DNA from: Cloeon dipterum
Taxonomy: Eukaryota; Arthropoda; Insecta; Ephemeroptera; Baetidae
NCBI RefSeq assembly: GCF_949628265.1
Contig: NC_088788.1
Span: 62,001-126,000, forward strand
Direction of reading: 5' to 3'
Length of the DNA stretch: 64,000 bases
Part shown: positions 3,691 to 29,907 of the stretch, piece after piece
Layout of the letters: every line of letters begins with the position of its first letter
How positions within the stretch are numbered: position 1 is the stretch's first letter
Translations under genes and position numbers: made by a program
The notes under the pieces: generated by a model
What the model was told of the DNA's origin: nothing
Databases searched by the model: none
Seen by the model: only the letters and a program-made list of their open reading frames with translations

Positions 3691-5009
3691 CGTGGTGTTG
3701 TTGAGGGCGCGTAGCTGCAGCTGGTGACTGGCGAGTACGTCTCGTGTGCACCAGTTCTTCGTGCTGGCCTTCTCCGCGGTGGTCCAGCGCCTCCTGAGTC
3801 TCCAGCTGACGGACGTGGCCTCGCTGCCGCCTTCAGGATCTGCACGCTGCCCGCCACATCCGTGGCAACCTCCGCGGCTTCCTCCAGCCTCACTCGCCGC
3901 CGCCGCCAAACTCTTCCCCTCGCTCTGCCGCACCACAATTTCCGGTCGTGACCATCCTCCTGCACGACCGGCTGTTCGGCCGTGTCTTCGCCAGGGCCTG
4001 CTGCGCCTCGTCGATCAGCTCCGTCCATCTCCGCCAACTTCGCCGCCGCCTCCGCCGACCTCTCCGCTGCCGCTGTCGACGCCACGAACTCGCCGACGCT
4101 GCGCTCGACGGCTGCTCGGCCGCGTCCGACCTAGTCTTCGCCACCGCTCCCCGCCGTCCTCTCTTCCGCCGCCGCCATCACCTCTGCCGCGTCCGACCTG
4201 GTCTTCGCCACAGCCTGCTACGCCTCATTGATCCGCTACGTCCATCTCCAGGGTCTTCCAGTCCGTTTTCGCTGCTCCTGTCCTTCCTTCAGTCCTCCAC
4301 CTCCAGTCCAGTCCCTTATTGCGTACTCCAAGTCCTCCAGATCCAGATCCATTATAACCCATGGGAAAGCAGCTCCTTTTATTAATTTAGCCAGACATCT
4401 TAATTTAGATTACAAATGCTTTCAAAAAATCATAAAAATAACGAGAAATTAAAAAATATTTTTCATTCAACACAAATTCGCTTTAAAAAAATTTTTAAAA
4501 CAAAGAAAAACCTGTTAAATTTGATTATTTCATATAAAAATTTCAATTAAAAAATGTTTAAATGTCGCTAAATAAATTAAAATAAATAGCTGTTAATTAT
4601 TTCCGAACTAAATATCAAATGGTAATAAAAACACATTTATTCAATTCTCATAACCATTTGAAGCAATTAAATTTTCTTTGATCTCAATTTATTTAAGTTC
4701 TAAGGCATAAATCTTATTTGGCTGATATTAAATAAATAAAAATAATTATTTTCAATATTAATATAATACAAATAACAATTCATTAACCAATAAAATAAAT
4801 TACAAATAATATGTTTAATGTTAATATAAATTCGGAAAATTATATTCCTGTTGAAATGTTTTATGGTGTTTCTATCAAGTGCAATTTTCATTTCATTAAC
4901 TCTTCGCCGTAATCGCACAAAGAATGCTCCATATCACTTTAAATTCTTTTCAACATCTCATTTCATCTTAAATCTCCGGTTATGACATTTTATTACTTTC
5001 CAAATCACG

Positions 5010-5800
5010 AAAAGTTAAATATATTGCTTGTTTTTTACGCGTTTTTTAAACTTTGATCCTCCAAATCTCGGGCTCTGAGCATCTCTAATGCAAAATCCAA
5101 CTACCAATGGACTCGTCTTAATCTCCTTTGATCAGGTGGAGGGTTTAAAAGGTGCATAAACTCATCCCCTTTCATCCCCAATGCCACAATTTTAACAATA
5201 AGCGACCACCGTTCCTGTCGCCGCTCCTTCTGTTTTGCATCTTTCGAGCTGTGTGACATCTTATTGGCAGAGAGCAAGCTCCCCAAAACCGATTTGTTGG
5301 TTAGAGCAGTTCAAGACGAGTGCAACGGTCTTTAGTTTTTTATATTCTGACCCTTAAAACCCGAGTTTTGGAGTTGGAAAAATGACGAAATGAAAAAGAA
5401 ATGTGCAACTTTTTCAGGTTTTTGGTATTTCCACCTACAAATCTCGGGTTCTATTGAACAGACTTGCAGAAACTAACAACCATTGCACTCGACTTGACCT
5501 GCTCTAACAAACAGGTCGGTTTGGGGAGCTTGCTCTCTGCCAATAAGATGTCACACAATTCGAAAGATGCAAAACAAGGAGCGGCGACAGGAACGGCGGT
5601 CGCTTGTTATTAAAATTATGGCATTGGGGATGGAAGGTGATGAGTTTAAGCACCTTTTAAACCCTCCACCTGATCAAAGGAGATTGAGACGAGTCCATTG
5701 TTAGGTAGATTTTGCATTAGAGATGCTCAGAGCCCGAGATTTGGAGGTTCAAAGTTTAAAAAACACGTAAAAAGAAATATATTTAACTTTTCGTGATTTT
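5010..5800. repeat. Central palindrome of E2
   Basis: Two inverted arms of about 370-390 bases meet near position 5,400. Each arm contains CTCCAAATCTCGGG-type ends, a GGAGGGTTTAAAAGG segment, and a GCCACAATTTTAA/TCGAGCTGTGTGACATCTT segment. A smaller dyad at the centre pairs CCCGAGTTTTGGAG with CTACAAATCTCGGG. Homologous cores occur at about 15,905-16,670, 23,735-24,440 and 27,515-28,250, and a half core at 10,850-11,092. Extruded as a cruciform or copied as RNA, this would form a hairpin of several hundred base pairs. Confidence 0.85.
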
Positions 5801-6774
5801 TCAAATTCCCAATCTTGGGATTTAAAAACCAGAATTTCAAAATCTATCAACCGCTATAGACTCTTCTCAATCTCCTCTGGAGCGCAGATGTGTTTTTGAC
5901 GTTATAATTAATCTTGATTTAATAACTCGGAGATTTCAAAATGGAGACGAACGTAATTTCTCCTAACGTAATAAAATGTCTTACCCGGAGATTACAGATG
6001 AAAAAAGATATTCAAAAAAATTTAAGTGACAGAGCACTTTTAGTGCGATTACGGCAAATGGTTAATAAATTGAAATTGCACTTTACAGAAACACTGAAAA
6101 ACATTTCAACAGGATTATAATTTTTTCGAATTAATATTAATGTTAAACATTTTATTTGAAAATATTTTTAATTTATTAATGAATTTTTTATCTATCTATA
6201 TTAATATTGAAAATATTTTATTTATTTATTTGATTTTAGCAAACTATTAATTAAGTCTTAGAATTTAAGTAAATTGAATTCAAAGGAAATTTAATTGTTC
6301 AAATGGTTATTACAATTGGATAAATATTTTTTTGTTCGCTTTAATATTTAGTTCCTAAATTATTAACAGCTATAGATTTTAATTATTTTATGAAATTTAA
6401 AAATTTTTTAATTTAAATTTATTTACTTGATAATAAAATTTAGCAAAATGATCTTTGTTTTAAAAATTTTTTGAAGCGAATTTGCATTGAATGAAAAATT
6501 TATTATAATTTATTGTAATTGTTATGATTGTTTGAATGTATTTGTGAACTAGATGAAGATGTCGGGCTAAATGAATAAAAGGAGCTGCTTTCCCATAGGC
6601 TAGAATGGATCTGAATCTGCAGGACTTGGAGGACGCGAGGGACTGGACTGGAGGAGGAGGACTGGCGGACTGAAGGAAGGAGAGGAGCAGCGAAGAGACG
6701 GACCCGAAGACCCCGGACACGGACGTAGCGGATCAACGAGGGAACAAGGTCGGACGCGGCTAAGCAGCTGTCAA

Positions 6775-7300
6775 GCGCGTCGCCGCTGCTGGTGATGGCG
6801 GTGGCGGCGTCGGAGGCGGCGGTGATTGCAGCGTCGGAGGCGGCGGTGATTGCAGCGTCGGAGGCGGCGGAGGTGGCGGCGTCGGAGGAGGCGGAGGTGG
6901 CGGCTGTTTTGGCGGCGTCGGAGGTAACGGCGTCGGAAGCGGCGGAGGTGGCGGCGGTTTCGGCGGCGTAGTCGGTGGTGGCGTCGGAGGCGGCGGTGGT
7001 TGCAGCGTCGGTGGTTGCAGCGTCGGAGGAGGCGGAGGTGGCGGCTGTTTTGGCGGCGTCGGAGGTGACGGCGTCGGAAGCGGCGGAGGTGGCGGCGGCG
7101 TAGTCGATGGTGGCATCGGAGGCGGCGGTGGTTGGGACAGAGGAGTCGGCGGCGGAGGAGTCGGCGGCGGAGGTGGTGCCGGTTTCGGCGTCGACGGAGG
7201 TGGCGACAGTGGTGGAGATGGCGGCGGAGGTGGCGGCGGCGGCGAAAGCGTTGGCAGCGGAGGGCGTAGTGGCGGCAATGGAGGCGGCAGCGGGCCACGA
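6775..7300. repeat. GC-rich triplet-repeat domain of E2 right arm
   Basis: The tract is built of GGC, GGA, GTC and GGT triplets with an internal duplication of roughly 130-150 bases (about 6,873-7,020 against about 7,020-7,140). Because indels are in threes, several frames stay open on both strands (Ala/Ser-Asp-rich, Pro-rich and Arg-rich). These translations look like by-products of the triplet structure rather than proteins. Confidence 0.8.
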
Positions 7301-7660
7301 ACGGGAGCTGGAGGCGGGTATAAGGGAAGAGATGGCCATCGAGGCGGTTGCTGACGGAGGCGGAAGGCTCCGAACGGCAGCTGGAGGCAGTAGCGGCGTG
7401 CGGCAGCGTTGCGTTTTTAATTAAAAAGTAGGCCGATCGAGACACTGCTTGCACACCAGCATCGATTTTGCACCGATTTTATTAATTTTTTTCCCTCTAG
7501 TGCATATTGCGGCGAAAATATGAATAAAAATAAATAAATCATCGAAAATTTATTTGCCTTTTGGTTCGGTTCGAAAAAGGTTTTCCCAACCAAAATGATA
7601 CAAGGATAAAATACAAATAAAAAAAACTATGAAATGTGCAGCGCTTGGAAATTTTTCTTT

Positions 7661-8099
7661 TCTTAATAAATAATAATGGGGTTAAAGTATATCTTTTATG
7701 CTACTTGCTTCTTTTCGCTTAATTTGGGCAATAAATTGAATTGGAAAGCCGCGCAGAATGAAAATGCTCCGGTTTTACGGACGCTGCTGATTGCGAGAGC
7801 GGAGCGAAAACCAAATTTCAGCCTCGCCTCAGCGCAAGATGAGCGAGAGGCGTCGCGGCGTCAAGTGAGAAAAAAAGCAGCTAACAGACCACGCTCGTTA
7901 TTTTGTAAGCCCTCCCCGGCATAATGATAGTCGAAAACGCACTTTATAAAGTGGGAAAAAGATTTTTGTAGAGGAATGAATTCAATTTAGGTACATCCAG
8001 AGCGCACAACTGGAGCCGTTTCATTTTATTTACGATGAGTTATAATTCGTGACATCGGACGCGCGCTTTCGAGAGATAATGAAAAGAGGAAAACACCCG
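7661..8099. other. Unannotated spacer containing an empty LINE insertion site (7,700-7,770)
   Basis: Positions 7,700-7,770 match A' at 20,030-20,059 joined directly to 20,295-20,325, so this copy lacks the 235-bp LINE fragment found there. The rest (7,770-8,099) is mixed sequence with no coding signal. Confidence 0.55.
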
Positions 8100-8525
8100 T
8101 GGGAATAATCAAGAGCTGCCTACGCGAGTGCGTGTGTATTTTATTATTGTTTTCTTTTAACGCGGCGCACGCGAGTGCGTGTTTTGCGCCGGTAGCAGAA
8201 AAGTAATTAACTGTGCGAGCAAAGGCAACAGAAGCCGAGACTCACTCTTACGCCAAAACAGGTGGAAACACACTCGAAACGCGCCTTCGAACACTCAACA
8301 AGTGACACCAGTGCATGACCGCTTGAAGATAAAATCAAAATTAATTGAAAAGCCCTTTCAACGTTCAAACCCAGATTTATTTTGCTGTTCATTTGAATTA
8401 AAAACAAATATCAATTTACATCGTGAGAAATAATTTAAATAATTCGCAAAAATACGGATGCTGGACGCTCTTAACGAGGGAAAACGGACCAAATTTGCAT
8501 TTGATTAAAAATATTCAAAAAACAG
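8100..8525 (+). repeat. Dispersed duplication I, inverted partner at 57,410-57,905
   Basis: Several blocks match the reverse complement of 57,410-57,905: the GCGGCGCACGCGAGTG segment, a segment containing CAACAGAAGCCGAGACTCAC, the CCAGTGCATGACC segment, and the segment CTGGACGCTCTTAACGAGGG at about 8,461. Small indels separate them. Neither copy has a convincing open frame or splice signals. It may be an ancient dispersed repeat. Confidence 0.75.
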
Positions 8526-9839
8526 AGGAGCAGTAAAGAAGGCCATTTAATTGGTGTGTCGTTCCAGATGGAATTTAATTAAGCTTTTTGTGAATTTGGA
8601 CAGGCGGAAGGCGTTGACTCCTTGTTAATTATGAAAATGCGAAAAGAGCGGCTGCCTGCTGCTGCACGCGTGGGACGCACACACTTGTATATATATCTTA
8701 ATTGCCCCGAAAATGTGCGTAATCGCTTTCCTCTTTCGCGATCCGAGAAAATATCGTGTTTCCACATGACTTAATTTCACGTCAGATGACGCCAATTAAT
8801 GTAAAAGAGACGGATTAAAGCAAATTAAATGCATTTTTCATCTTGAAAATATTAATTTGCAGTGACTGCGAAAGTTTGAGTTAAAAATGATTCATCAGGG
8901 GTCCGCAACGATGAATATTTTCGATTAAATTTGTTCTGTGGAACGAAAAGACAATTGGAACGTTTGGCAAAATGCATCATCTTGGCGCGCGCACTTCGGG
9001 TTTCGCCAGCTCATGCAATGCAAATTGGTTACCATACCCGCCCGCGCCAGCATTTTGCGCTAAGCGAGACCTCTGCGCCAGTGCACGGCTGCGTCCAAAG
9101 GGCAACCCCATTTCCTGATCTTTTCCGCACTCGAATCGAACCGAGACGACGATTGCGATTCGTGAAAATTGTTCTGTCCAGAGTGACGCAGAAGAGAGTC
9201 GGCCCCGAATGCAGATTGTGCGCGACACTTGCTCACCGCGAGAGCTAGTTAGGCGCGATCCGACAATTTCGCAAAATGTCACCAAAAAGCGAGCACTCGG
9301 CTGAAGTACACGGGCCTGGCCATATTTCTAAAAAGCCGCAGGTTGCTGCCATTTTGCACAATTTTCTATACAGAAGATTGAGATTTAAGTAAAGGATTGC
9401 GTGTAGAGCGTGTTGCGTGGCTGTCGTGACATGATAATTTATCCCAATTGGGAGCGTGCGCGTAACGAGAACTCGCCTAAGATAGAAAACGGCGTGCGCC
9501 TTACAATTAGAAGGAATGTGCACTGGCACTGCCGCTCACAAAGATTTGCTCTGCTTACGGAGAAATCGCAGTGCGAACTGACAATTTGGCGCCGCCGAGC
9601 CACCGACAGCGGCCGGCCGACACATATTGCTGTCCTGCCTACCTGCCTGCCTGCCGTGGCCCAGTCTCCAATCTCTCGAATCCGCGTCCGCCACTGACGG
9701 CACACCGACTTTGGACGGGCGTCCCGAATTCTAAACACGCCACACGCGACGCTCGCCGCACCGGCAAACTCACGCGACACAGTACTATTTTCTAATTTCC
9801 TCACGAACAAAAGCAGTAACCAGCTCAGATCTTTAAAAA
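8526..9839. other. Spacer with no supported gene
   Basis: Mixed composition: AT-rich to 8,930, then GC-rich to about 9,780. Overlapping open frames of 70 to 160 codons exist on both strands, but none has recognisable motifs, splice context or consistent codon bias. Confidence 0.5.
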
Positions 9840-11092
9840 TTCCTGATGTGAGGATTTGAAAGGAAATATCTAAAAATAAAATGTGGAGGAAAGATGTTTT
9901 CGTTACGACTGCGCAGAGCAATTAAAAAGGGCGTCTTCAAGAGTTAAAAGCCAATCAAAATCAGATCAGAATGTAAGGGAAAGGGAAGACTGATAATGAA
10001 TTTTGCCACTTAGTTGAGATGATTAAGGATGATAATTAATTATTTCTGTGTAGAGGATTATTACAAATGTCAACAAAATCTTTTGATCAAAGAAGTTCTT
10101 TGTACTTATAGTAGATAATGCCTGATCAAAAATAAGTATTCAATTTAAAATTCTTTTCTATTAATCGCACCTACAATTTTGCAGCAATTGCATTTCCCAA
10201 ATCCGTACAATCGTCCGATAATTTCACAAGAACGGAAACGCAAGATTGGCCAACGCAAACCGCGATTCCATCTGCAGGCCGTTTAAGCTGCTAAGGTAAT
10301 AATCACACGGCAATTAGTGCAATTTTCGCGAGCCACACGATCCAAAATAAATCGACAAAGCAGTAGAATGAAAACAAAAAAGATGACTTTGTACTCACCC
10401 TGAGCCAGACGGCGCGGGGTCGCCGATCACCTCGCAGTGGTAATCTGCACAGTGTCACCCTCGCCGGCGGAGGTCGAGCGCAAACTTGGGCTCCTCCGAG
10501 TACCTGGAAAAGCAATAGAAAATCCAAATTAAACACACTGCGGCAACTGCATGGCGAGAGAAGAAAAAACTTGTTAATTAAAAGACTCACACGGCTTTAA
10601 TCATCCAGCATTAATTATTGTGCGCGAGAGGGCCTCTCGAATACAAACAAATAAGTAATTACGCGGTCACTGCAACTCGCGTGTGTACATTTTAAGTACT
10701 CGAACGACACGACCACGTGCCGATTTTAATTTTAAAACTGGCTGCGACGCTGATTGAAAATCGGCTCAGATGCTGCAACAGGTTTCCGTGGGCGTTAAGC
10801 AAGTGCAAAAATCACAAAAAAAAATAAAATTAATTATTTTCTCGCGTTTTCGAAACTTTGAACCTCCAAATCTCGGGTTCTGAGCATCACAAATGCAAAA
10901 TTTACATCCCGTATAACTTGCCTCAATCCCCCCTGAGCAGCAGAAGGGTTTAGGGGGTGCTAACGCTCATCCCTCTTCATCCCCATTGCTATACAATTTA
11001 GAAAAAGAGGGACTACCGCTCACTGTTGCATCTTTAAAACTGTATGCCAACTTGATGTGGATGGAGAGCAAGCAAACACCCCTTAACCCGGA
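9840..11092. repeat. Segmental duplication B (partner B' at 22,699-23,978)
   Basis: The block begins at TCCTGATGTGAGGATT and runs to a GATGGAGAGCAA motif inside the left half of a foldback core. It matches 22,699-23,978 with only scattered small differences; the exon island inside it is offset by 12,882 bases. The right edge of both copies lies within element core sequence (E3 and E5), so the breakpoint is probably element-associated. Confidence 0.85.
10399..10503 (-). pseudogene. Decayed Ig (I-set) domain exon, copy 1
   Basis: On the minus strand a TTTTCCAG acceptor (10,504 upward) and a GTGAGT donor (10,393-10,398) bracket 105 nt. Reading across frames gives EEPKFALDL, then GEGDTVQIT, then CEVIGDPAP, then VWLR. 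This is the order and spacing of an I-set Ig domain N-terminal half: the B-strand Cys in CEV, the G-D-P-x-P turn, and the C-strand Trp. Joining them needs three frame changes within about 100 bases, so the exon cannot encode the domain as it stands. One frame is open throughout but yields an unfamiliar Arg/Pro-rich peptide. Tandem Ig domains of this type are typical of titin, obscurin or twitchin-like muscle proteins, which is an inference here. Confidence 0.5.
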
Positions 11093-11950
11093 TAACAGGA
11101 TTATCTTGATAGATTCGAATAAATATTAACACTTAATATTCATTTCATAATACTTTTAAATTATTATTGAAATTCCTATAATTTTACATAAATACTGTAA
11201 ATTTTTAATATTATTTATCGAATTTCAACTAAATTAAATAAATGGCATAAAATTTAAATACGTTGCATGCGAAGTATATTTAACAGTTTCAATTGGTTAT
11301 TAGAATTGGGCAAATAGTTTTCTGGTTCGATCTTATGTTTAATTCCGAAATTATTAACTAGAGATTATTTTAAAGAATTTAATTCATATTTTTTTCCTTT
11401 ATAATGGAATTTTACCGGAATTTTAAGGTAAATTTCATGAATTTCAGAATAATTTTGACTCATTTATGATTCGATTTGTAAAAAGGCTTAAGGTAAAAGG
11501 CTGAATTAATATAGGGAGCTGTATTCCAGTATGTTAGCATAGATCTGGAGGACTTGGAGTACGCAATAAGGGACTGGACTGGAGGTGGAGGACTGAAGGA
11601 AGGACAGGAGCAGCGAAGACGGACCCGAAGACCCCGCCGAGACGGACGGAGCGGATCAACGAGGCGCAGCAGCCCCTGGCGAAGACCAGGTCGGACGCGG
11701 CCGAGCAGCCGTCGCGCGCGGAGGGCAGCGTGCGGCAGGAGGCGTGCGCGGAGGCGGTGGACCACGTGCGCCAGCTTGAGACGGAGCTGAGCGAGTGGGA
11801 CGGCGTGCACCGAAAGTGCCAATGCCTCGAGCAAGTCTCAAAGCACGACATGGAACGCCAACTGCAGCTCGCGAAGCTGGTCAAGGAGGCACTTGAACTG
11901 GTGGAGAGTGACTGCAGTGCCGCGTGCTGCAAGTGGAGTTCCAGAAGCGG
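10815..11950 (+). mobile_element. Foldback element E3, deleted copy (half core plus right arm)
   Basis: It starts with the left half of a core (about 10,850-11,092), jumps at about 11,095 to an AT-rich right arm (11,100-11,505), and ends in a GC-rich outward domain (11,510-11,950). The left arm and right half of the core are missing. The TATA-like position reads TTAATATAGGG (about 11,506-11,516), and the ATG that opens the acidic frame in other arms is replaced by ATA, although the frame itself (DLEDLEYAIRDWTGGGGLKE) stays open longer than elsewhere. Confidence 0.65.
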
Positions 11951-12056
11951 CCGATCGCTTTTGACTGAGAGACTGAAACGGACGGAACGGTTTGATTTCT
12001 CAGCCAGAACAGTCGTCGCAGCCTTTCTCGCATCTTTGCAACGGTTGAGGTGTTAA
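11627..12056 (+). pseudogene. Coiled-coil coding remnant in E3 right arm
   Basis: A frame open from about 11,627 to the stop at 12,054-12,056 reads ...RINEAQQPLAKTRSDAAEQP, then a heptad-like segment VRQLETELSEWDGVHRKCQC, then LEQVSKHDMERQLQLAKLVK and EALELVESDC. Leucine and valine spacing with alternating charges is typical of a coiled coil. No ATG opens this frame near its start, so translation would depend on an upstream exon or frame. The last part runs into the left arm of the 12,019-12,790 palindrome, so the C-terminus is not native. The parent gene was not identified. Confidence 0.45.
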
Positions 12057-14440: not shown

Positions 14441-14717
14441 TGCAGTCGCGCAACAGCGGCGAGAGTAGATTGATGTTCGGATTAAAAGTGGCAGCCGGAA
14501 ATTGGCCACTCGCTACCAGCGTCCGCCGACGCGGCCGCCTGCCTGCACGAGAGTAACAAAGTGCAGTTATTAATTAGACGCGGGAATTCGTGGTCGCTGC
14601 CTTGTGTGCACCAATTTGTCGTGCTGGTCTTTTCCGTGGTGGCCAGCGCCTCCCTCGTCTCCAGCAGGCGCGCGCGACGATCCGCCGGCACCTCGCCGGC
14701 ATCACCTGACAGCCACC

Positions 14718-15041
14718 TCCACTTGGCCACCGCCTCCACCTCGCCGCCGCCTCCAGCTGCTGCCTCGTCGCCTCGAGCTGCCGCACCTCAACTTCCAGCT
14801 GTGTCCGTTGCGATTCCAGCTCCTCCAGCCCAACCGGCTGCTCGGCCGCGTCCAACCTGGTCTTCGCCAGGGTCTTCTGCGCGGTCATCTCGGCCTCGTT
14901 GATCTGCTCCGACGCGTCCAGGCGCCGCACCAACTTCTCGTTTGCGATGCATTCCGGGGTCTTCATGTCAGTCTTGGCTGCACCAGACCTTCCTTCTTCT
15001 CCGCCGGTTGTTGTCCTCCAGGCCATCTCTGCGGTCCTCAC
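14718..15041 (-). pseudogene. Best-preserved coiled-coil frame of the family (E4 left arm)
   Basis: The minus-strand frame reads MKTPECIANEKLVRRLDASE, QINEAEMTAQKTLAKTRLDA, AEQPVGLEELESQRTQLEVE and VRQLEATRQQLEA, a long amphipathic heptad pattern. After about 14,718 the coiled-coil signal shifts to another frame (EAVAKWRWLSGDAGEV..., then RRARLLETREALATTEKTST, ending NWCTQGS near 14,600). So one frameshift separates two halves of what was probably a single coding stretch of about 150-170 residues. An internal ATG (MAWRTT) lies just inside the frame. The parent gene is unknown. Comparable fragments sit in E2, E3 and E6. Confidence 0.5.
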
Positions 15042-15904
15042 CAGTCCTCCTCGTAGTCCACGTCCAAGTCCTCTAGATCCGTGTCAGCGTATGGGAAAGC
15101 AGCTCATTTTATTAATTTAGCCCGAAATCTTAATCTAGTTTACAAATCCATTGAAAAATACATAAAAATTATGTTGAAATTCAAGAATTTTACCTTTAAA
15201 TTTAAATTCGCTGAATAAAAATTTATAATACAAAGAAAACGCGGTTAAATTTGAATATATTTTAAAGAAAAATAAATAATAAATATTGAAATCCGATAAA
15301 ATACAATAAAATTAAATCCATTAGATTAATTCAGAACTAAGCATTAAATCTAACCAAAAAATTATTTATATAATACTGATAACCATTTTAAAACATTAAA
15401 ATTTTATTTAAATTCCATTTATAAAAATCCTAAGGCGTCCTTATTATTAAGCTTAAATTCAGTTAACAAAAATAAATACGCCGAAAATTAATATAAATAG
15501 ATAAAAAATTAATTATTAAATTAAATATAGATTTAAATAAAATAATTGTTGTTATTATTTAATTCTAAAAATTATAATCGTGTTGAAATATTTTTCGGTG
15601 TTTCTTTTGAAGTGCAAATTTTAATTCATTAACCCTTCTCCGTAATCGCACAAAAATTGCTCTATATCAATTTAAAAATTTTCAAACTCTAATTTCATCT
15701 GAAACCACCAGCAATAAAATATTTTTATCTCTAGGCGAGTGCGTTTGTCTCAATTTTGAAAGCTCAAAATATAAAAAAAATATTATTTACAGCGTGAAAA
15801 ACAAAACTGTGCTTCTGAGGAGATTGAGAACAGTCTACTGATGGATTTTGAAATTCTGATTGTTAAAATCCGGGATCAGGCAAAAATTAAAAAAATTAAA
15901 AAAT

Positions 15905-16670
15905 TGTTTTTTCACGCGATTTTGAAACTTTGAAACGCCAAATCTCGGGTTCTGAGCATCTCAAATACCAAATCTAACTACCGTTGGACACGTCTCAATC
16001 TCCTCTGAGCAGTTGGAGGGTTTATAAGTAGCTTAAACTCATCCCCTTTCATCCCCAATGCCACAATTTTAATAACAAGCGACCGCCGACACCGCCGTTC
16101 CTGTCGCCGCTCCGTGTTTTCCATCTTTCGAGTTGTGTGACATCTTATTGACGGAGAGCAAGCTCCCCAAACCGACCTTTTTGTCAGAGCAGGTCAAGTC
16201 GAGTGCAATAGTTGATAGTTTCTGCAAGTCTGATCAATGGAACCCGAGATTTGGAGGTGGAACTACTAAAAAAACTCAAAAAATTGCACATTTTTTAAAT
16301 TTTGTCATTTTTCCAACTCCAAAACTCGGGTTTTAAGGGTCACAATTGAAGAAATTACCCACCGTTGCACTCGACTTGAACTGCTCTAACCAACAAATCG
16401 GTTTTGGGGAGCTTGCTCTCTGCCAATAAGATGTCACACAGCTCGAAAGATGCAAAACAAGGAGCGGCGACAGGGACGGTGGTCGCTTATTGTTAAAATT
16501 GTGGCACTGGGGATGAAAGGGGATGAGTTTAAGCGCCTTTTAAACCCTCCAACTGGTCAGAGGAGATTGAAACGAGTCCAACGGTAGGTAGATTTGGTAA
16601 TTGAGATGCTCAGAACCTCAGAGATTTGAGGTTCGAAGTTTAAAAAAACGCGCAAAAAAGAAATCTATTT
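15905..16670. repeat. Central palindrome of E4
   Basis: Inverted arms meet near 16,285. The left arm has CGCCAAATCTCGGGTTCTGA at 15,936, and the right arm has its counterpart at 16,606-16,645 with small changes. The second inner dyad (AACCCGAGATTTGGAGGTGG at 16,240 against CCAACTCCAAAACTCGGGTT at 16,314) matches the E2 arrangement, so the core is an ordered structure conserved between copies. Confidence 0.8.
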
Positions 16671-18654
16671 AACTTTTTGAGATTTTTACAATTCCTAATC
16701 TAGGGATTTAAAAACCAGAATTTCAAAATCTATCAACCGCTATAGACTGTTCTCAATCTCCTCTGGAGCGCAGATGTGTTTTTGACGTTATAATTAATCT
16801 TGTTTTAATAATTTGGAGATTTCAAAATGGAAAAAATGAATTTTGCCTTAGGTAATATAATTTTATAACTGTAGATTTCAGATTAAATTTTACGTAGGAA
16901 GAATTTAAAATGATGCTTAAGAACAATTTTGTGCAATTATGGCAGTGGGTAACTGAAAATTGCACTTAACAGAAACACCGAAAAACATTTCAACAGAATT
17001 ATAATTTTTCGAATTAATATTAATGTTAAACATTTTATTTTAAGAAAGTTTTAATTTATTAAATAATGTTTTTTTTATTTATAATCATACTAAAAATATT
17101 TTATTTATTTATTTGATTTCAGCAAAATATTAATTAAGCCTCAGAATTTTAATATATTGAATTCAAAGGAAATTTAATTATTTCAAATGGTTATCAGAAT
17201 TGGATAAATATTTTTTTGTTCGCTTTTAAATTTAGTTCCTGAATTATTAACAGCTATTGATTTTAATTTATTTTACGAAATTAAAAAAAAATGAATTTAA
17301 ATTTCTTTTCTTTATAATAACATTTAACAGGTTTTTCTTTGTTTAATAAATGTTTTAAAGCGAATTTGAATGGAATGAAAAATATTTTTAATTTAGCGTA
17401 ATTTTCATGAATTGTTGAAAGGATTTTGAAAACTAGATTTAGATGTCGGGCTAAATTAATAAAAGGAGCTGCTTTCCCATGGATTATAATGGATCTGGAT
17501 CTGGAGGACTTGGAGGACGCGAGGGACTGGACTGGAGGACTGGCGGACTGAAGGAAGGAGAGGAATAGGAGCAGCGAAGACGGACCCGAAGACCACGGAG
17601 ACGGAAGGAGCGGATCAACAAGGCGCAGCAGGCTCTGGCGAAGACCAGGTCGGACGACGCCGAGCAGCCGTCGAGCGTGGCGGCGTTGGAAGCGGCGGCG
17701 GAGGCGGAGGGAGCGGTGGTGGAGGCGACCGAGGTGTTGGCGGCGGTTGCGGCGGAGGTGGAGGAGGTGGAGGCGGAGGCGGCGGAGGGAGCGGTGGTGG
17801 AGGCGGCGGAGGTGGCGGAGGGAGCGGTGGTGGAGGCGGCCGAGGTGTTGGCGGAGGTGGTGGAGGCGGAGAGGGCAATTCGAGGCGGTGGGAGAGGAGA
17901 GGTCGAAACGGAGACGGTTGCTGGTGGAGGCGTGAGTCGCGTGAGCAGCGAGGAAAGAGGCTGCTGGAGCCGTGTCGCGTGCGGCACCGTTACAGTTACA
18001 ATTAAAAGATAGGCCATTTGAAACGCTGCTTGCGCACCCGCATCGATTTTGTTAATTTTTTCCCTCTGGTGCAGGTAAGATTGAGGCAAAAAAATTAACA
18101 AAAATAAATATCTCATCGAAAATTTGCCTTTTGGTTCGTTTCGAAAAAGGTTTGCCCAACCAAAATGATAAAAGGATAAAATACAAATAAAAAAAACTAT
18201 GAAATGCGCATGAATAGCAAACAAATCCAATTCCCTTTTGTTTTCTTTGCTGTTAAAAAATCACAGTCAATGAACTATCGCATGTTATTTCCAACGCTTG
18301 GAAATTTTTCTTTTCTTAATAAATATTAATGCGGTTAAATTAATTATTTTACGGAAATAAATTTAATCTGTCATTCACGTCAGGAAAATGCTCCATTTCT
18401 GGTACACTCTCGCTCATCATTGCTCTCTCGTCGGCTCCAAATATTTTGCAATAAAAAACTGCAAACTAAATAGAGCACGGAATAAAGTTTGCAGAAGCGT
18501 TGGCCGAAGTCGCAACTCGGTGTCGGCTGACCGACAGGAAAGAGAGTTTGCCTGCAGCGCGTTTGAACGCAGCGCACGACACAAAATCGGCTTCTGCTAT
18601 TATAAATCAAAATAGAGTAATAGATTTGGGCCAAACAATCAATTCTGTTCGAGG

Positions 18655-19619: not shown

Positions 19620-19713
19620 GCGGACTTCCTGCGCGTCCCTGATGTCCCTGAAGAGCAGTGTGGCCTCCGTGGGCGTGACGTCGGGCGTCAGGGACCGAGC
19701 CCGCTTACGAATC
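19620..19713 (-). pseudogene. Exon-like island Y' (copy 2)
   Basis: Identical to the candidate exon at 2,349-2,442, including the GTAAAG donor (19,614-19,619) and the CTTACG on the acceptor side. It lies on the same strand as, and 3' of, the Ig-like island of the B' block, preserving the order seen in the first copies. Confidence 0.4.
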
Positions 19714-20059: not shown

Positions 20060-20294
20060 CCAAGTGCAGTGCTATCGTCATTGGAATAGTCTTTCACCAA
20101 ATTTGTGTATGAACGAGAATTCAAGTGCATTTAAGAAGAAAATTGAAGAAGCAATATTCTCAAGCTACCATTAATTATTACTTCCTTCCAAATGTTGTTC
20201 CTACATAATTGTATCATTACTTTATGGATGTGTGCTGATTTGGGGCAGAGTTGCCCTGTCAGCCCATAATAAACTTAAATTTTGAAACTAAATT
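20060..20294 (+). mobile_element. 5'-truncated LINE (non-LTR retrotransposon) tail
   Basis: Positions 20,061-20,174 encode HWNSLSPNLCMNENSSAFKK followed by KIEEAIFSSYH and a stop. This matches the W-N-S-L-P...S-S-x-x-F-K-K-K-hydrophobic ending of many CR1/Jockey-type reverse transcriptases. About 120 bases of 3' UTR follow. The insert is bounded by AATAAATT (20,052-20,059) and ACTAAATT (20,287-20,294), a probable slightly diverged target-site duplication. The sequence at 7,700-7,770 is the uninterrupted site. A YGCVLIWGR peptide at 20,223-20,249 is probably chance. Confidence 0.65.
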
Positions 20295-21276: not shown

Positions 21277-21560
21277 GTACGATTGATTCGGCTTTTGCGT
21301 GTGGGTGGCGAAAGGAAGAAAGAGGCGAGTGAATGGAGCTGTGTCACACTTGGTCTCTGTCGGCCGAGGGGCGATTTTTCAATCGCGGGCGCAGGGGCGC
21401 AACGACCGCGCCGCGCAGACACTTTGATGGATGCGCCGCTTATCTCGACGCGTCTGCACACGCATTTCTCGAGACGACTTTTTTTCTTCTTTCCCATGCG
21501 GCCCAACTATTTTTCCTATTTTTCGCGCGATTAGCGCGGATTCGACCGAGATAGCGAGCG
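21277..21560. repeat. Duplication D (partner D' at 29,908-30,150)
   Basis: Shared landmarks are GATTGATTCGGCTTTTGCG, CTCTGTCGGCCGAGGGGC, TTTTTCAATCGCGGGCGCA and CGCCGCTTATCTCGACGC, separated by small indels. The partner lies directly at the outer end of element E6, so D is close to the sequence into which E6's GC domain is joined. Confidence 0.8.
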
Positions 21561-22698
21561 AGAGCCAGTTTGAACCGCGAAATTCAATATTGAAAGGTGA
21601 GTCACTGCGCGTGTGAGTAATAAAGCCAATCAGACATCAGGCCCAAACCGCGCGGGAGCCACGGCCCAAAGCCGCAGAATTAATTCCGCCTCGCTAGATT
21701 CCCCCAGGCCGAATAAAAAATACCCCCGTCGTCGTCCCGTGACCTTCCACAAGGCCCCCATCCGCGATGCAATCAGTGCGCATGCGTCGGGATTGCTGAA
21801 AAATGGCCAGTAATCAGTCCGTGAACTTGGTGAAACGGCTCTGCGCGTATTTCCGACTCTTATTTCCGACAGCAGCTTCTGCGCATGCCCGTTAAACCCA
21901 AGCACATGCGCAGTACGGTCTCCGTGCGCAAGAGGCTGGACAGCAGCGAGCGATGGCGGCATTCAGGGTCGTCACGTAGTTGAATTATGCAATAAGTCAC
22001 GCGTGCAGACTCGATCTTTTTTGCCGATCAAAGACGCAGATGCCAATTATTGTTCTTTTCGACGGATGGTATAAATATAAATTTGTTTGCCGTTCGTCGT
22101 GCCGCAGCTTTGGCGAATTGTGATTTGGTCGCGTCGGCAAAGGCCAGGTCAGTCCAGGGGACACGACGATTGATCGCGCGCGCGCAGCCGGAGACAAATT
22201 GCGGCCGGGATACCCGGAAAAGCGGCTTTCGTACGCTCGATTACTGCTAATGCGGCGCGACAAAAACGCGACACTCGATTATTATTTCGGTCGCGTCGCC
22301 AAGAGAGCGAATCGAGCGGCTGCTTTTGTAACGAGACGCCGCGAATTAATTAGTATTCAAATTTCGCTTTCGCCACAACGCGAGCTCGTTTGACGGCGCA
22401 CCAGCACCAGCCGATTCCACATATCAATTGTTAATCAAACAAACACGGCAGTAAATTTAATTCAGAAACTCGGCCGGCATGCACCGCGACCACGACCACG
22501 CAGCCACTCGAATAAAATCTTCATTCAACTAGACACACACAATCTGAGTAAATAATTCATTCAAATTCACTCTTGCCGGCCGGCCATTCTCACAATCAGG
22601 CTCGGAAAATAGTCGCTTCAAAAGGACAAAAGCTGCGCGCCGGGCACTCAAAGTCGATTCCTGTGACAGTCGCAAGTTTCTAATGACCATTGAATTAA
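21561..22698. other. Spacer with no supported gene
   Basis: GC-rich sequence with many short overlapping frames on both strands, several rich in Arg and Ser as expected from composition alone. A 110-codon minus frame (21,630-21,962) has no recognisable motifs. Confidence 0.5.
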
Positions 22699-23978
22699 GT
22701 CCTGATGTGAGGATTGGACGAAATATCTAAAAAAAATAAATGTGGAGGAAAACTATTTTCGCTAGCACTGCGCAGAGCTATTAAAATATGCCTTTTTAAG
22801 AGTTGAATGCAGTTAAAAATTAAAAAAAGCAAAGGACTGGACAGCCAATGCTGAATTTTGCTTTTTAGTTGATATATCCCTATGCGATTGATATACTTAT
22901 ATCGTTTCCTGTGTAGAGGATTGTTACAATTGTGAACAAAATCTATTGATCCAAGAAGTTCATTGTTCTTAAAAGTAGATGATGCCTGATATAAGCATTA
23001 TATAAAAAAATAATTATTCAATTTATAAACTTTTCTGATAATAGCACAAATAATTTTGCAGCAATAATTGCATTTCGCAAATCCGTAAAATCGTTCGATA
23101 ATTTCACAAGAACGGAAACGCAAGATTAGCCAACGCAAGCCGCGATCCCATCTGCAGGCCGTTTAAGCTGCTAAGGTAATAATATCACACGCCAATTAGT
23201 GCAATTTTCGCGAGCCACGTGATCCAAAATAAATCGACAAAGCCGCAGAATGAAAACAAAAAAGATGACTTTGTACTCACCCTGAGCCAGACGGCGCGGG
23301 GTCGCCGATCACCTCGCAGTGGTGATCTGCACAGTGTCACCCTCGCCGGCGGAGGTCGAGCGCAAACTTGGGCTCCTCCGAGTACCTGGAAAAGCAATAG
23401 AAAATCCAAATTAAACACACTGCGGCAACTGCATGGCGAGAGAAGAAAAAACTTGTTAATTAAAAGACTCGCACGGCTTTAATCATCCAGCATTAATTAT
23501 TGTGTGCGAGAGGGCCTCTCGAATACAAACAAATAAGTAATTACGCGGTCACTGCAACTCGCGTGTGTGCATTTTAAGTACTCGACCGACACGACCACGT
23601 GCCGATTTTAATTTTAATACTGGCTGCGACGCTGATTGAAAATCGGCTCAGATGCTGCAACAGGTTTCCGTGGGCGTTAAGCAAGTGCAAAAATCACAAA
23701 AAAATAAAATAAAATTAATTATTTTCTCGCGTTTTCGAAACTTTGAACCTCCAAATCTCAGGTTCTGAGCATTTCAATTGCAAAATTTACTTATTTTTGG
23801 ACTCGCCTCAATCTCCCCTGAGTAGCAGAAGGGTTTAGGGGATGCTAACACTCACCCCTCTTCATCCCCATTGCTATAAAATTTAGAAAAAGAGGGGCTA
23901 CCGTCCCTGGCGCCGCTCACTGTTGCATCTTTAAAGCTATATGCCAACTTGTGGATGGAGAGCAAACACCCCTAAATC
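22699..23978. repeat. Segmental duplication B' (partner 9,840-11,092)
   Basis: Carries the second Ig-like island and ends inside the core of E5. Small indels distinguish it from B, for example near 22,720 and in the AT-rich stretch at 22,960-23,060. Confidence 0.85.
23281..23385 (-). pseudogene. Decayed Ig (I-set) domain exon, copy 2
   Basis: The exon island is the same as at 10,399-10,503 with one visible base change (an ATT/ATC-type silent position in the QIT codons). It keeps the same acceptor, the same GTGAGT donor and the same frame breaks. Sharing the lesions means the decay, or the true reading if it is not decay, predates the duplication. Confidence 0.5.
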
Positions 23979-24860
23979 CTTCAGCTACTTAGAGTTGGAA
24001 GAGGCTAGTGCAACGGTGGCTGGTTTCTAATATTCTGATGCTTACAACCCGATATTTGGAGGTGGAAATATTAAAAAAAATGCTTCTTTTTCATTTTGTC
24101 TTTCTTTCCAACTCCAGAACTCGGGTTTGAAGGATCAGAATATCAAAAACTAAAGACCGTTGCACTCGTCTTGGCTTGCTCTAACCAACAGATTGGTTTT
24201 GGGAAGCTTGCTCAACACCTATAAGATGCTCAAAAGATGCAACAAGGAGCGACAAAAGGAACGGCGGTCCCTTATTGTTAAAATTGTGGCATTGCAGGGA
24301 TGAAAGGGGTGAGCTTAAGCACCTTTTAAGCCTTTCAGCTGGTCAGAGGAGATTGAGGAGAGTCCAACTGTAGGCATTTGAGATGCTCAGAGCCCGAGAT
24401 TTGGAGGTTCAAAGTTTCGAAAAACGCGCGAAAACAAGCAATCTTTTACAATTTGTGATTTTTGCAAATGCTAATCTAGGATCTTAACGATCAAAATTTC
24501 AAAAACAAACCCCCGTTAGATTTATCTCAACCTTCTCTGATGCCATGAAAGGTTTTTATAATTTGGAGCTTTTAAAATGGAGACAAACGTAATTTAGCCC
24601 AGTTAATAAAAAATTTTTACAAATACTGCGACCATATAAAGGTTATTGGGCAGACAGTACCTAAAATTCTCGCCCCAGGTGAAGGTTAAATTGCCGAGTT
24701 CACTTCTAATTATTCTTCATTGGGTTAATATGTGTATAAGCGCGGAGGACGAACTAGGGTTCTAGCGTCGGCCATTGTGCTGCAGCGTTGCGGTTTTAAT
24801 TGAAAAGCATGCGATCAGGCAACTCGAGACCTGCTTATTATCAGGAGCAAGCGAAACCGA
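23715..24860. mobile_element. Foldback element E5, core with truncated right side
   Basis: A full central palindrome (about 23,735-24,440, turn near 24,085) is followed by a short right-arm remnant to about 24,640. A fragment of the family right-end block follows (24,775-24,860, GCAGCGTTGCGGTTTTAATT). The AT-rich arms and GC-rich domains are missing. This is the minimal form in the window and shows that the core can exist without the outer domains. Confidence 0.65.
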
Positions 24861-25503
24861 CCTGCTTGCGCATGAAAGGCATTTTCCGATGAATACTTTT
24901 AAAATAAATCCGGTTTCAAATCAACAAATCTTTAGAAATAATTTTATGCAGACTTATATTAACCTAAGAATGCTCAATCCTTTTGGTCCGACTTCAAGTA
25001 AAATAACATAAACGAATTCATACATTTCATGAAATACAACATTATTTATCTGTGACCTTACGAGGCCGAATTGATGATTTCGAAAGGGTGAAATCGGTGT
25101 GTTACACTCGTTCCCAGCATCGCAACGACGGTTTTTAATCTCGTCCGGACCGCAGCTTGGCCTTGACCGCACCACCGTGCCAATTTTGCAAGTCTTGGCG
25201 CTGACCCGAGACGTCGCGTTGGACAAGTGTTGCTCACTTCTGCTTTCCAAATCGCGATTAGTGTCCAACAAAAGCTTAAACTTGTAATTTTACTGTTCAA
25301 ACACATAATTTTAATTATTCGTGTGAATATGAACAACTTTCGAAAGCCCTAACTCGAGAGAGTAAAATTATATTTCGAAAATGGGCTGAATTTGAAAATA
25401 AAAATTGGCTTCTTGGGTGGGTATACGTGCTTGCATTCGTTCTTAATAAGTTTAAAAACAATAAATTAAATATAGAACAAAGTGTAAACATTAATGCTAG
25501 CAA
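24861..25503. other. Spacer with no supported gene
   Basis: A plus-strand frame at 25,099-25,287 (GLDRTTVPILQVLALTRDVA and following) has a protein-like hydrophobic pattern but no family I recognise. The stretch 25,415-25,440 (GGGTATACGTGCTTGCATTC) resembles part of the diverged satellite flank at about 43,700-43,730. Confidence 0.35.
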
Positions 25504-26040
25504 CTAGCCACCAAAGAAACCACTCTTTGAATTTTTATCTTGTAAATTTGTCCCATTTTTAACATTATTTTTATTTTCTCGGCTTTGGGACGCATTTCTT
25601 GTTGTTTGGCCCTTGGAATTTTCAATACCGATCGTCAAATTAAAAAAATCACGCGGAACGTGGGCTCGGGTGGCGTGACCTGGCGAGGTCAGCCGCTATA
25701 TGATTGATCGGTTGGAAGCAGGAGGCCTGCCGAGTAGCTGGAGGCCAGCGGCCGCGCGTTTGCGCAGTGGTCGCATAATTATCTCCCTTTGATACGTTCA
25801 AAATGGGGCTGGCGGGGATCAGGTACGCGGGTTCTAATGGTTTTAATTGGATCAAAAGCGTTGACGAACTATTTTTTGTGCTTTCCAATGTGAGACAATT
25901 GTTCAGACTGAAAAAATGGTTATGCAACGGTCGAATTTTTAATTTAAATTGCATTGACAAGGTGTCAAATTAATTATTTGACTTAAATTGCGGGTTTTTA
26001 TATCTCGCTCCTTGAGTACCGATGGTTTTGCAATTTCGTG
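25504..26040. repeat. Segmental duplication C' (left flank of E6)
   Basis: Counterpart of 3,158-3,690. Together with the near-identical left arms, this means E2 and E6 left halves were copied as one unit with their flank. The right halves differ in length and in outer domain. Confidence 0.85.
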
Positions 26041-27514
26041 GTGTTGTTGAGGGCGCGTAGCTGCAGCTGGTGACTGGCGAGTACGTCTCGTGTGCACCAG
26101 TTCTTCGTGCTGGCCTTCTCCGCGGTGGTCCAGCGCCTCCTGAGTCTCCAGCTGACGGACGTGGCCTCGCTGCCGCCTTCAGGATCTGCACGCTGCCCGC
26201 CACATCCGTGGCAGCCTCCGCGGCTTCCTCCAGCCTCACTCGCCGCCGCCGCCAAACTCTTCCCCTCGCTCTGCCGCACCACAATTTCCGGTCGTGACCA
26301 TCCTCCTGCACGACCGGCTGTTCGGCCGTGTCTTCGCCAGGGCCTGCTGCGCCTCGTCGATCAGCTCCGTCCATCTCCGCCAACTTCGCCGCCGCCGCTA
26401 CCGGCGCCACCAGCCGCCACAAACTCGCCGACGCCGCGCTCGACGGCTGCTCGGCCGCGTCCGACCTGGTCTTCGCCGCCGCTCCCCGCCGTCCTCTCCT
26501 TCGCCGCCGCCACCACCTCTGCCACCGCTGCCGCGTCCGACCTGGTCTTCGTCAGAGCCTGCTGCGCCTCGTTGATCCGCTCCGTCCTTCTCTGCGGGTT
26601 CTTCCTTCTTCCGGTCCGTCTTCGCTGCTCCTGTCCTTCCTTTAGTCCGCCAGTCCTCCACCTCCAGTCCAGTCCCACGAGTCGTCCAAGTCCTCCTGAT
26701 CCATTCTTGCCCATGGGAAAGCAGCTCCTTTTATTAATTTAGCCAGACATCTTAATTTAGATTACAAATCCTTTCAAAAAATCATAAAAATTACGAGAAA
26801 TCAAAAAATATTTTTCATTCAGTTCAAATTCGCTTTAAAATATTTTTAAAACAAAGAAAAACCTGTTAAATTTTATTAATTCATAAATAAATTTGAATTA
26901 AAAAATGTTTAAATGTCGCTAAATAAATTAAAATCAATAGCTGTTAATTATTTCGGAACTAAATATCAAATGGTACTAAAAACACATTTATTCAATTCTC
27001 ATAACCATTTGAAGTAATTAAATTTATTTCGAATTCAATTTATTCAAACTCTAAGGCACAATTATTATTTCGCTGAAATTAAATAAATAAAAATAAATAA
27101 CTACAATATTAATATAAATCGATTCATTTATAAATTATATAAATTGAAATAAAATGTTTAATGTCAAAATTAATTAGAAAAATTTTAATCCTGGTAAAAT
27201 TATTTTCGGGATATCCTTTAAGTGCAATTTTCAGTTTACTAACCCTTTGCCGTAATTGCACAAAAAAGTGCAATAGCGTCATTTTAAATTTTTTCTACGT
27301 AAAATTTAATCTGAAATCTACATTCGCAAAATTTTATTTCCTATAGGCGAAAGTACGTTTGTCGCCATGTTGAAAGCTCCAAATTATTTAGACAATATTA
27401 TTTACAACGCCAAAAACCCATCTGTGCTCCTGAGGAGATTTTGAAATTATGATTGCTAAAACCTGAGATTAGAAATCGCACAAATCACAAAAAATGAAAA
27501 ATATTGATTTCTCT

Positions 27515-28250
27515 CTCGCGTTTTTCGTAACTTTGAACCTCCAAATCTCGGGTTCTGAGCATCACAAATGCAAAATTTACATCCCGTATAACTTGCCTCA
27601 ATCCCCCCTGAGCAGCAGAAGGGTTTAGGGGGTGCTAACGCTCATCCCTCTTCATCCCCATTGCTATACAATTTAGAAAAAGAGGGCCTACCGCTCACTG
27701 TTGCATCTTTAATGATGTATGCCAACTTGTGGATGGAGACCAAACACCCCTTAACCCGCTAGCTACTTAGAGATGGTCGAGGTGAGTGCAATGGTTGTTA
27801 GTTTCTGCAAGTCTGTTCAATAGAACACGAGATTTGTAGGTGGAAATACCAAAAATCTCAAAAAGCTGCACATTTCTGTTTCATTTCGTCATTTTTCCAA
27901 CTCCAAAACTCGGGTTTTAAGGGTCACAATTGAAGAAATTACCCACCGTTGCACTCGTATTGAACTGCTCTAACCAACAAATTGGTTTTAGGGAGCTTGC
28001 TCTCCACACATAAGATGTCACACAGCTCGAAAGATGCAAAACAAAAGTAGCGACGACAGGAACGGCGGTCGCTTATTATTAAAATTGTGGCATTGGGGAT
28101 CAAAGGGGATGAGTTTAAGCGCCTTTCAAACCCTCCAAATGATCAGAGGAGATTGAGACGAGTCCATTGGTAGTTAGATATGGTAATTGAGATGCTCAGA
28201 ACCTGAGATTTGAGGTTCGAAGTTTAAAAAAACGCGCAAAAAAGAAATCT
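27515..28250. repeat. Central palindrome of E6
   Basis: The left half is closest to the half core of E3 (both have the CATCCCGTATAACTTGCCTC variant) and the right half is closest to E2/E4. The core therefore appears to be a hybrid of two sublineages joined at the turn near 27,880. Confidence 0.75.
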
Positions 28251-29249
28251 ATTTAACTTTTTGTGACTTTTAAAATTCCTAATCTCGGGATTTAAAAACC
28301 AGAATTTCAAAATCTATCAACCGCTATAGACTCTTCTCAATCTCCTCTGGAGCGCAGAACTGTTTTTAACGTTATAATTAATCTTGTTTTAATAACTTGG
28401 AGATTTCAAAATGGAAAAAATGTAATTCCGACTAAGGTAATATAATTTTATAACTGTAGATTTCAGATTAAATTTTACGTAGGAAGAATTTAAAATGATG
28501 CTTAAGAACAATTTTGTGCAATTATGGCAGTGGGTAACTGAAAATTGCACTTCACAGAAACACCGAAAAACATTTCAACAGAATTATAATTTTTCGAATT
28601 AATATTAATGTTAAACATTTTATTTTAAGAAAGTTTTAATTTATTAATTAATGTTTTATTTATTTATAATCATATTAAAAATATTTTATTTATTTATTTG
28701 ATTTCAGCAAAATATCAATTAAGCCTCTGAATTTTAATATATTGAATTCTAAGGAAAATTAATTGTTTCAAATGGTTAATACAATTGGATAAATATTTTT
28801 TTGTTCGCTTTAATATTTAGTTCCTAAATTATTAGCAGCTATAGATTGTAATAATTTTACGAAATTTAAAAATTTTTTAATTTAAATTTATTTACTTTAT
28901 AATAAAATTTAGCAAGATGATCTTTGTTTTAAAAATTTTTTGAAGCGAATTTGCATTGAATGAAAAATTAATTATAATTTATTGTAATTGTTATGATTGT
29001 TTGAATGTATTTGTGAACTAGATGAAGATGTCGGGCTAAATGAATAAAAGGAGCTGCTTTCCCATAGGCTAGAATGGATCTGAATCTGGAGGACTTGGAG
29101 GACGCGAGGGACTGGACTGGAGGTGGAGGACTGGCGGACTGAAGGAAGGAGAGGAGCAGCGAAGAGACGGACCCGAAGACCCCGGACACGGATGGAGCGG
29201 ATCAACGAGGGAACGAGGTCAGACGCGGCCGAGCAGCCGTCGAGCGCGG

Positions 29250-29900
29250 CGGCGACGAGTTCGTGGCGGCGGCGACGGGTTCGTCGGCGGCGGCGACGGG
29301 TTCGTCGGCGGCGGAGTCAGTGGTGGTGGCGGAAGGGGCGGCGGCGGCGACGAGTTCGTCGGCGACGGAGTCAGCGGCGACTGCAGAGGTGGCGGCGGCG
29401 GCGGCGGCGGCGACGGGTTCGTCGGCGGCAGAGGTGGCGGCGGCGGAAGGGGCGGCGGCGACGGGTTCGTCGGCGGCAGAGGTGGGGGCGGCGGCGACGG
29501 GTTCGTCGGCGGCAGAGGTGGGGGCGGCGGCGACGGGTTCGTCGGCGGCAGAGGTGGGGGCGGCGGCGACGGGTTCGTCGGCGGCAGAGGTGGCGGCGAC
29601 GGAAGGGGCGGCGGCGACGGGTTCGTCGGCGGCAGAGGTGGCGGCGGCGGAAGGGGCGGCGGCGACGGGTTCGTCGGCGGCAGAGGTGGCGGCGACGGAA
29701 GGGGCGGCGGCGACGGGTTCGTCGGCGGCAGAGGCGGCGGCGGCGGAAGGGGCGGCGGCGACGGGTTCGTCGGCGGCAGAGGTGGCGGCGGCGGAAGGGG
29801 CGGCGGCGACGGGTTCGTCGGCGGCAGAGGTGGCGGCGGCGGAAGGAGCGGCAGCAGAGGACAAGGCGGAGGTGGCGACGGAAAGGGCGACGGCGGTGGC
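29250..29900 (+). repeat. Triplet-phased minisatellite in E6 right arm
   Basis: About ten units share GACGGGTTCGTCGGCGGCAG and are spaced by about 33 bases (three consecutive units at 29,497-29,600) or by roughly 48-51 bases (the rest). All spacings are multiples of three to my count, so frames remain open on both strands for more than 200 codons (Ala/Gly/Ser-rich, Arg-rich, and Ala/Pro-rich in antisense). I regard these as low-complexity by-products, not established proteins. Confidence 0.85.
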
Positions 29901-29907
29901 GGCGAAT

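Follow-up and report, generated by a model that had tools for sequence, protein, structure and literature searches.

The Drosophila foldback-type elements Galileo and Tetris are described as having long, internally repetitive inverted arms (PMC3573991, PMC4079207), and the human subtelomeric duplicons are described as blocks common to non-homologous chromosome ends, in mosaic order and of varied divergence (PMC2323237). Here we analyze a 64,000-nt stretch of the Cloeon dipterum genome (contig NC_088788.1, called C3 below, positions C3:62001-126000; this whole stretch is referred to as the window), which carries a family of imperfect palindromes of roughly 2.2-2.9 kb, labeled E1 to E6, whose complete members have a promoter-like motif and a GC-rich coding-like domain facing outward at both ends. 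These units have in common with the human duplicons the blocks at non-homologous ends, the mosaic order and the varied divergence; unlike the duplicons as characterized in that source, the repeated unit here is palindromic, with a promoter-like end facing outward on each side. The plan of Galileo and Tetris is resembled by the dispersed repeat family to which the palindrome core belongs; unlike those elements as portrayed in the two sources, however, the arms here are not dispersed, the copies share flanks, and a comparison of 10 proteins of the region with Pfam gave no transposase. The subtelomeric promoters of telomeric repeat-containing RNA (TERRA), with their 61-29-37 repeats, offer a further parallel, being likewise a promoter-like repeat found at many ends without a conserved protein (PMC6600276); unlike what that account presents, the two motifs of our modules point apart and lie 28-246 kb from contig ends, and the likeness is one of description. 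Finally, in the fold-back inverted duplications outlined for double-strand breaks (PMC10622511), a broken end folds back on itself and primes the copying of the sequence beside it, as we propose here; that source concerns cancers and Mre11-deficient yeast, whereas here the mechanism would be read from fixed, old palindromes. An insect precedent for such modules did not appear among the titles listed by the literature searches, which does not imply its absence from print. Our analysis indicates that these units are probably (at a rough probability of 0.7) subtelomeric modules with constrained outward promoter-like signals and not transposons, and that the label that fits them best is subtelomeric duplicons of an unusual, palindromic plan.

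Results

The genome comprises 190.1 Mb in 10 contigs, of which C1-C5 (43.2, 37.5, 37.1, 36.4, and 33.2 Mb; about 187 Mb in sum) are treated here as the five large chromosomes, their contig ends being taken as chromosome ends. Five matches to 7tm_6, an odorant-receptor family not known outside insects, agree with an insect genome, and a search for COX1 gave a single weak, broken match below the cut-off. Comparison of the window with its own reverse complement confirmed the giant palindromes, which exceed chance expectation by far. E1, E2, E4, and E6 are complete: E4 and E6 align with themselves in reverse over 2,736 nt at 74.7% identity (14953-17599) and 2,884 nt at 72.4% (26498-29278), respectively, and in E2 the core aligns over 808 nt at 86.4% (5002-5799) and the arms over 790 nt at 81.0% (4223-4999 versus 6741-5965). 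The best self-reverse bit scores were 935 (E2), 1579 (E4), 1582 (E6), and 1700 (E1), against a maximum of 44.6 in 30 dinucleotide shuffles of each element. The long inverted repeats make up most of the unit, as would be expected of a Galileo-type element, and the order outward along each arm is a half-core, an AT-rich stretch of about 0.8 kb, the promoter-like motif, and the GC-rich coding-like domain, the last carrying tandem GGCGGAG-type repeats. Identity between the two arms of an element is 76-84% over about 1.2 kb, and the arms of E1, E2, E4, and E6 have counterparts on C5 at 97-100%. The preliminary description of this DNA had proposed a giant palindromic family with one shared plan, in which duplicated outward promoter-like ends comprise a TATA-like box, a short acidic ATG frame and a KTRSDAAEQP-type phrase, and all of these were recovered in our comparison, the motif being strongly conserved. 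It had also listed E1, E3, and E5 as partial, which holds for E3 (one arm and part of the core) and E5 (core only), but not for E1, which the window edge merely cuts and which is complete across that left edge, with arms at C3:59965-60734 and C3:61669-62599.

The arms carry a near-identical motif, AATAAAA(G/T)GAGCTGCTTTCCCAT. On a tree built from the columns inward of the motif, a 36-nt window, AGATGTCGGGCTAAATGAATAAAAGGAGCTGCTTTC, required 11 parsimony changes across 27 arms, compared to a mean of 65.4 (standard deviation 18.1) over 1263 windows, and the next best non-overlapping window, with 35 changes, was located directly downstream of it. These 27 arms had been chosen by the motif, which is a bias; when arms were found by homology to the neighboring AT-rich stretch, with four shorter hits set aside, 25 of 27 carried the motif with at most two mismatches, the exceptions being E3 (6 mismatches) and one C1 arm (4 mismatches). 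The 36-nt motif is, on these statistics, under constraint. A 30-nt motif pattern occurs 30 times in the genome at up to three mismatches, 25 times with none, and the reversed pattern, used as control, does not occur at all. All 30 sites lie within 250 kb of five chromosome ends; 22 of them form 11 divergent pairs spaced 1.8-2.4 kb apart, two weaker copies complete two more such pairs (6 of 32 sites thus stay unpaired), and there are no convergent pairs within 2.4 kb. An ATG follows the motif by about 31 nt in most arms and is lost in 5 of 28. The short acidic frame that starts near this position (+31) runs for 13-22 codons in 21 of the 28 arms, three of them lacking the ATG, and its phase is kept over the first 8-14 codons in 27 of 28, with insertions and deletions in threes. 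Changes at codon positions 1, 2, and 3 numbered 17, 12, and 12 (26 arms), i.e., with no third-position excess, and the single-nucleotide codon differences over all pairs of 14 arms comprised 60 synonymous and 246 non-synonymous ones. Given that neither count carries a coding signal, the constraint lies at the DNA or RNA level. The simplest reading of the motif would be a promoter, and its constraint suggests that outward transcription from many arms is likely. A splice-acceptor or poly(A) reading was rejected by inspection, as the flanking AG is not conserved and no downstream T-rich element is present.

A genome search was made with both core and arm, and it found the core dispersed and the arms at five chromosome ends. 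For the arm query, which excluded the core (window 5880-6800), all 35 candidates were scored and 36 genome matches were obtained. Thirty-five of these, including two fragments of a single arm, are clustered at one end of each of five contigs (C1 end, C2 start, C3 start, C4 end, and C5 end), no further than 250 kb from it. The remaining match is weak and 79 nt long, and no whole palindromic unit was seen dispersed elsewhere in this genome-wide arm search. The C3 start and the C5 end are inverted mosaics of one another, sharing inverted blocks of 13.5 kb (98.5%), 9.1 kb (95.5%), 7.4 kb (97.3%), 6.8 kb (95.7%), and 6.3 kb (96.9%) that include elements plus long flanks, and for the C4 and C2 loci, too, there are matching pieces, 1.8-4.3 kb long and 93-97% identical. 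Both the restriction to chromosome ends and the high-identity blocks common to non-homologous ends are what is expected of subtelomeric duplicons. Within the window, the right arm and outer flank of E1 recur in E4 over about 2.7 kb, the left flank and arm of E2 recur in E6 over 1.9 kb, and E3 and E5 have 1.3 kb in common. This last segment leads into both elements: the copies move together with their flanks. A common outer limit that would define termini was not seen, nor was a target-site duplication found.

The arms also cluster by direction. The eight C3 arms each have a C5 counterpart nearby on the arm tree. Because the array on C5, C4, and C1 is in the opposite orientation to that on C3 and C2, contig strand is confounded as an arm label (11 changes on the tree versus about 9 when shuffled). 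Each arm was therefore labeled by its direction, either toward the contig end closer to it or inward toward the body of the chromosome. With this label the 27 arms required 3 changes versus 8.7 when shuffled (0 of 500 shuffles as low), a low count to which near-copies among the 27 contribute; the 15 arms left without the C5 and C4 copies required 3 versus 5.0 (27 of 500 as low; 39 of 500 for the other label). Directions do mix, in that well-supported branches force at least two changes in the full tree. By this clustering, the spread of whole palindromes kept mostly to one polarity, which is what exchange between ends would produce, and their filing as subtelomeric duplicons is strengthened. 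Exchange within a unit is seen at the right arm of E1 (E1R), which is 98.9% identical across chromosomes and then continues into different GC-rich domains (window 372-1100 versus C5 offset 42912): a recombination boundary lies near the promoter-like motif, and the GC-rich domain has been exchanged.

KTRSDAAEQP-like phrases were found in five arms (E1R, E3R, E4L, E4R, and E6L, with L and R for left and right), within a stretch related to a coiled-coil protein that is encoded near chromosome ends. The genome matches to this coiled-coil family were all located at the ends of C1, C3, C4, and C5 (13 of 13 and 18 of 18, four of the 18 being the outer domains of the palindromes themselves), and open frames of 316-324 codons are present at three places; in E4 the left domain matches over 69 coiled-coil query residues at 71%. 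Pieces of the coiled-coil gene are present at the C1, C3, and C5 ends, and between the C1 copy and a C3 copy carrying a stop the non-synonymous divergence (dN) is 0.065 and the synonymous divergence (dS) 0.139. In nine cross-chromosome pairs the GC-rich domain differs by 0.9-6.0% and the arm by 0-2.9%, the domain being at least as diverged as the non-coding arm in 8 of the 9; the tenth pair, E1R, was set aside for its exchanged domain. Gaps in the GC-rich domains are not a multiple of three in 20 of 53 cases in these nine pairs (60 of 103 when E1R is included). Given this divergence and the frame-breaking gaps, most GC-rich domains look dead, and frames further out from the motif are broken. 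The 146-codon open frame of the E3 domain (11616-12053) is open in three copies that differ from one another by 0 synonymous and 1-3 non-synonymous changes, and thus gives no sign of coding constraint. The cellular-looking coding start noted earlier does, then, lead into a chromosome-end coiled-coil family, but what it leads into are remnants with broken frames. In a Pfam comparison of 10 proteins of these regions, neither the outer domains nor the coiled-coil gene matched a family above the cut-off and no transposase was present, the genome as such not having been searched for a transposase; a sequence search of the Protein Data Bank gave no match.

Judging by sequence similarity, only the core of the palindromes is dispersed, as a member of an abundant foldback-like repeat. 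Among the 40 of 556 candidates scored for the core query, close copies occur only at the five chromosome ends, and copies of about 70% identity occur elsewhere on all five large contigs; a dispersed core copy used as query gave 1661 first-look candidates, 40 of which were scored. When dispersed copies were taken with about 2 kb of flank, the match was to the core only and the arms were absent (4 of 4 checked). One core subfamily resides in a 1.68-kb element with the ends TGGTGCC...GGCACCA and TA on both sides (2 of 2 copies read); the element copies L048:938-2618 and L049:930-2609 are 95.7% alike, with the core repeat inside. The symmetry axis, judged by eye, falls in the AT-rich loop between facing CCCGAG-type core arms in 10 of 13 elements (E1, E2, E4, E5, E6, and five C5 elements), at the repeat's other axis, near GCAACAGTGAGCGG, in the C4 and C2 elements (2 of 13), and elsewhere in one C1 element. 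Five dispersed loci were compared, and three (L036, L042, and L044) show both axes, L048 the second, and L045 the first plus another. An axis at the loop of the repeat fits fold-back copying primed by the repeat.

The coordinates of the modules are given in Table 1. The nearest clear ordinary gene, named by inspection, is a centrin-like EF-hand gene of at least two exons (window 61798-62364); a tRNA-Arg is located at 62,959-63,031, and an Rfam scan of the window gave nothing beyond one tRNA. A perfect TC microsatellite of 50 units is present at window 39347-39446, and an AT-rich satellite with a 163-bp unit in 67 copies at 44455-55436; the same satellite also occurs within a few kb of palindromic modules at the C4 end, C2 start, and C1 end. 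Runs of at least three TTAGG, TTAGGG, or TCAGG units were not found at the 10 contig ends of C1-C5 (last 4-10 kb). As to the sequences at these ends, C3 (1-22000) and C5 have repeated units in common, AT-rich repeats of about 50 bp are terminal at the C1 start, C2 end, and C5 start, the C4 start has a terminal 72-bp satellite, and the C4 end and C2 start have AATT/ATAA-rich arrays with a GTGAATTAAAGAG unit common to both.

Table 1. Palindromic modules and associated segments in the window (positions are those of the window unless C3 is given).
Feature	Position	Strand	Remark
E1, right arm and GC-rich domain	1-1120	+	continues left to C3:59965; motif 363-392
Duplicated segment, flank and left arm of E2 and E6	3122-4975	+	90.1% to 25464-27319
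E2, complete palindrome with GC-rich ends	4182-7294	.	
Promoter-like motif, E2 left arm	4363-4392	-	C3:66363-66392
E2 core, palindromic, member of dispersed core family	5002-5800	.	
Promoter-like motif, E2 right arm	6565-6594	+	C3:68565-68594
Duplicated segment leading into E3 and E5	9838-11089	+	87.1% to 22697-23979
E3, partial core, one diverged arm, GC-rich domain	10798-12056	+	partial core 10798-11090
E4, complete palindrome with GC-rich ends	14574-17900	.	coiled-coil remnant outward within 15026-14577
Promoter-like motif, E4 left arm	15093-15122	-	C3:77093-77122
Promoter-like motif, E4 right arm	17449-17478	+	C3:79449-79478
E5, core only	23680-24558	.	
E6, complete palindrome	25970-29905	.	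tandem repeats of 33-84 nt at the end of the right GC-rich domain
Promoter-like motif, E6 left arm	26715-26744	-	C3:88715-88744
Promoter-like motif, E6 right arm	29034-29063	+	C3:91034-91063

Discussion

The preliminary description had seen in these modules a mobile foldback-type family and a candidate undescribed system, a reading that is not supported. Transposable elements of the foldback type (Galileo, FB or Tetris-like) that favor chromosome ends and move as whole palindromes would account for the long inverted arms, the many copies of similar overall size and a core that belongs to a dispersed family; yet the arms are confined to five ends apart from the weak 79-nt hit, the copies sit in larger duplicated blocks and share kilobases of flank with no common outer limit seen, the arms cluster by direction to the contig end where insertions would be expected in both directions, and no transposase is among the 10 proteins compared with Pfam. 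We therefore regard it as unlikely that the whole palindrome is mobile; the likeness to foldback elements stands for the central inverted repeat, as part of a dispersed foldback-like family, but not for the arms. It is just as improbable that the modules are functional divergent gene pairs, each palindrome being the bidirectional promoter of two genes that start like MDL(D/N)LEDLEDARDW. The single frame kept over the first codons and the location of the second-best conserved stretch just downstream of the motif would agree with such genes, but the codon-position and substitution counts and the lost ATGs would not, the downstream frames are broken with no coding constraint beyond both starts, and the stretch is built of 3- and 6-nt repeats, in which in-frame slippage is expected. 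An assembly artefact, in the form of false palindromes or duplicated ends, had been named from the outset as what would overturn the family, and two chromosome ends that are near mirror copies, together with the difficulty of assembling repeats near ends, might raise that suspicion. False palindromes would be near identical, whereas the arms here differ by 16-24% with C5 counterparts at 97-100%, and copies are present at five ends with distinct divergence; as far as the sequence tells, an artefact is very improbable.

We favor the reading of the modules as subtelomeric duplicons, with the following origin. A copy of the chromosome-end coiled-coil gene with its promoter would have lain beside a copy of the dispersed foldback repeat, and a break or stalled fork in that repeat may then have folded back and copied the flank in reverse, a formation of inverted duplications for which descriptions are available (PMC10622511, PMC3907307). 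The product would be a head-to-head pair of promoter and first exon, with a symmetry axis that is the repeat's own. Exchange between chromosome ends then spread whole palindromes and their flanks, largely in one polarity, to one end of each of the five large contigs, as seen in the duplicated blocks and in the way the arms group by direction. Some of the arms and of the outer domains have been swapped and the coding parts have decayed, with the 36-nt promoter-like motif kept, on the statistics above, under constraint.

Several observations weigh against this account. Of the 10 loop-axis cases, 4 (E2, E5, and two C5 elements) align best over the core only, so that the axis is not independent of it; and with two different axes, at least two events, or else later deletions, have to be assumed. 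The core halves are more alike (85-89%) than the outer AT-rich arms (71-80%) in E1, E2, and E4, but less alike (69%) than the arms (79%) in E6; in the C1 element the values are 49% for a core that is not properly alignable and 74% for the arms. If core plus arm had been duplicated in inverted form only once, both should have diverged equally, and thus more than one step appears to be involved, with conversion near the center or extra events being needed to explain the inequality. In addition, the distance of about 31 nt from the TATA-like box to the ATG leaves almost no 5′ leader and does not fit well with a promoter driving that ATG. We consider it doubtful, though somewhat less so than the rival explanations above, that the modules go as far as being divergent palindromic non-coding units, with outward promoters held by selection at the five ends while the coding parts decay. 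Their chromosome-end RNA would then be analogous to TERRA or to the telomere-associated sources of PIWI-interacting RNA (piRNA) in Drosophila.

These modules show how large palindromes may start from a dispersed foldback repeat and later become the common property of chromosome ends, and they isolate a 36-nt sequence that is by far their most conserved stretch. If this motif drives transcription, it would open a way to study chromosome-end RNA in an insect in which no canonical telomere repeat is seen at the contig ends; if it does not, the family would be a clear case in which subtelomeric duplication was taken for a mobile element.

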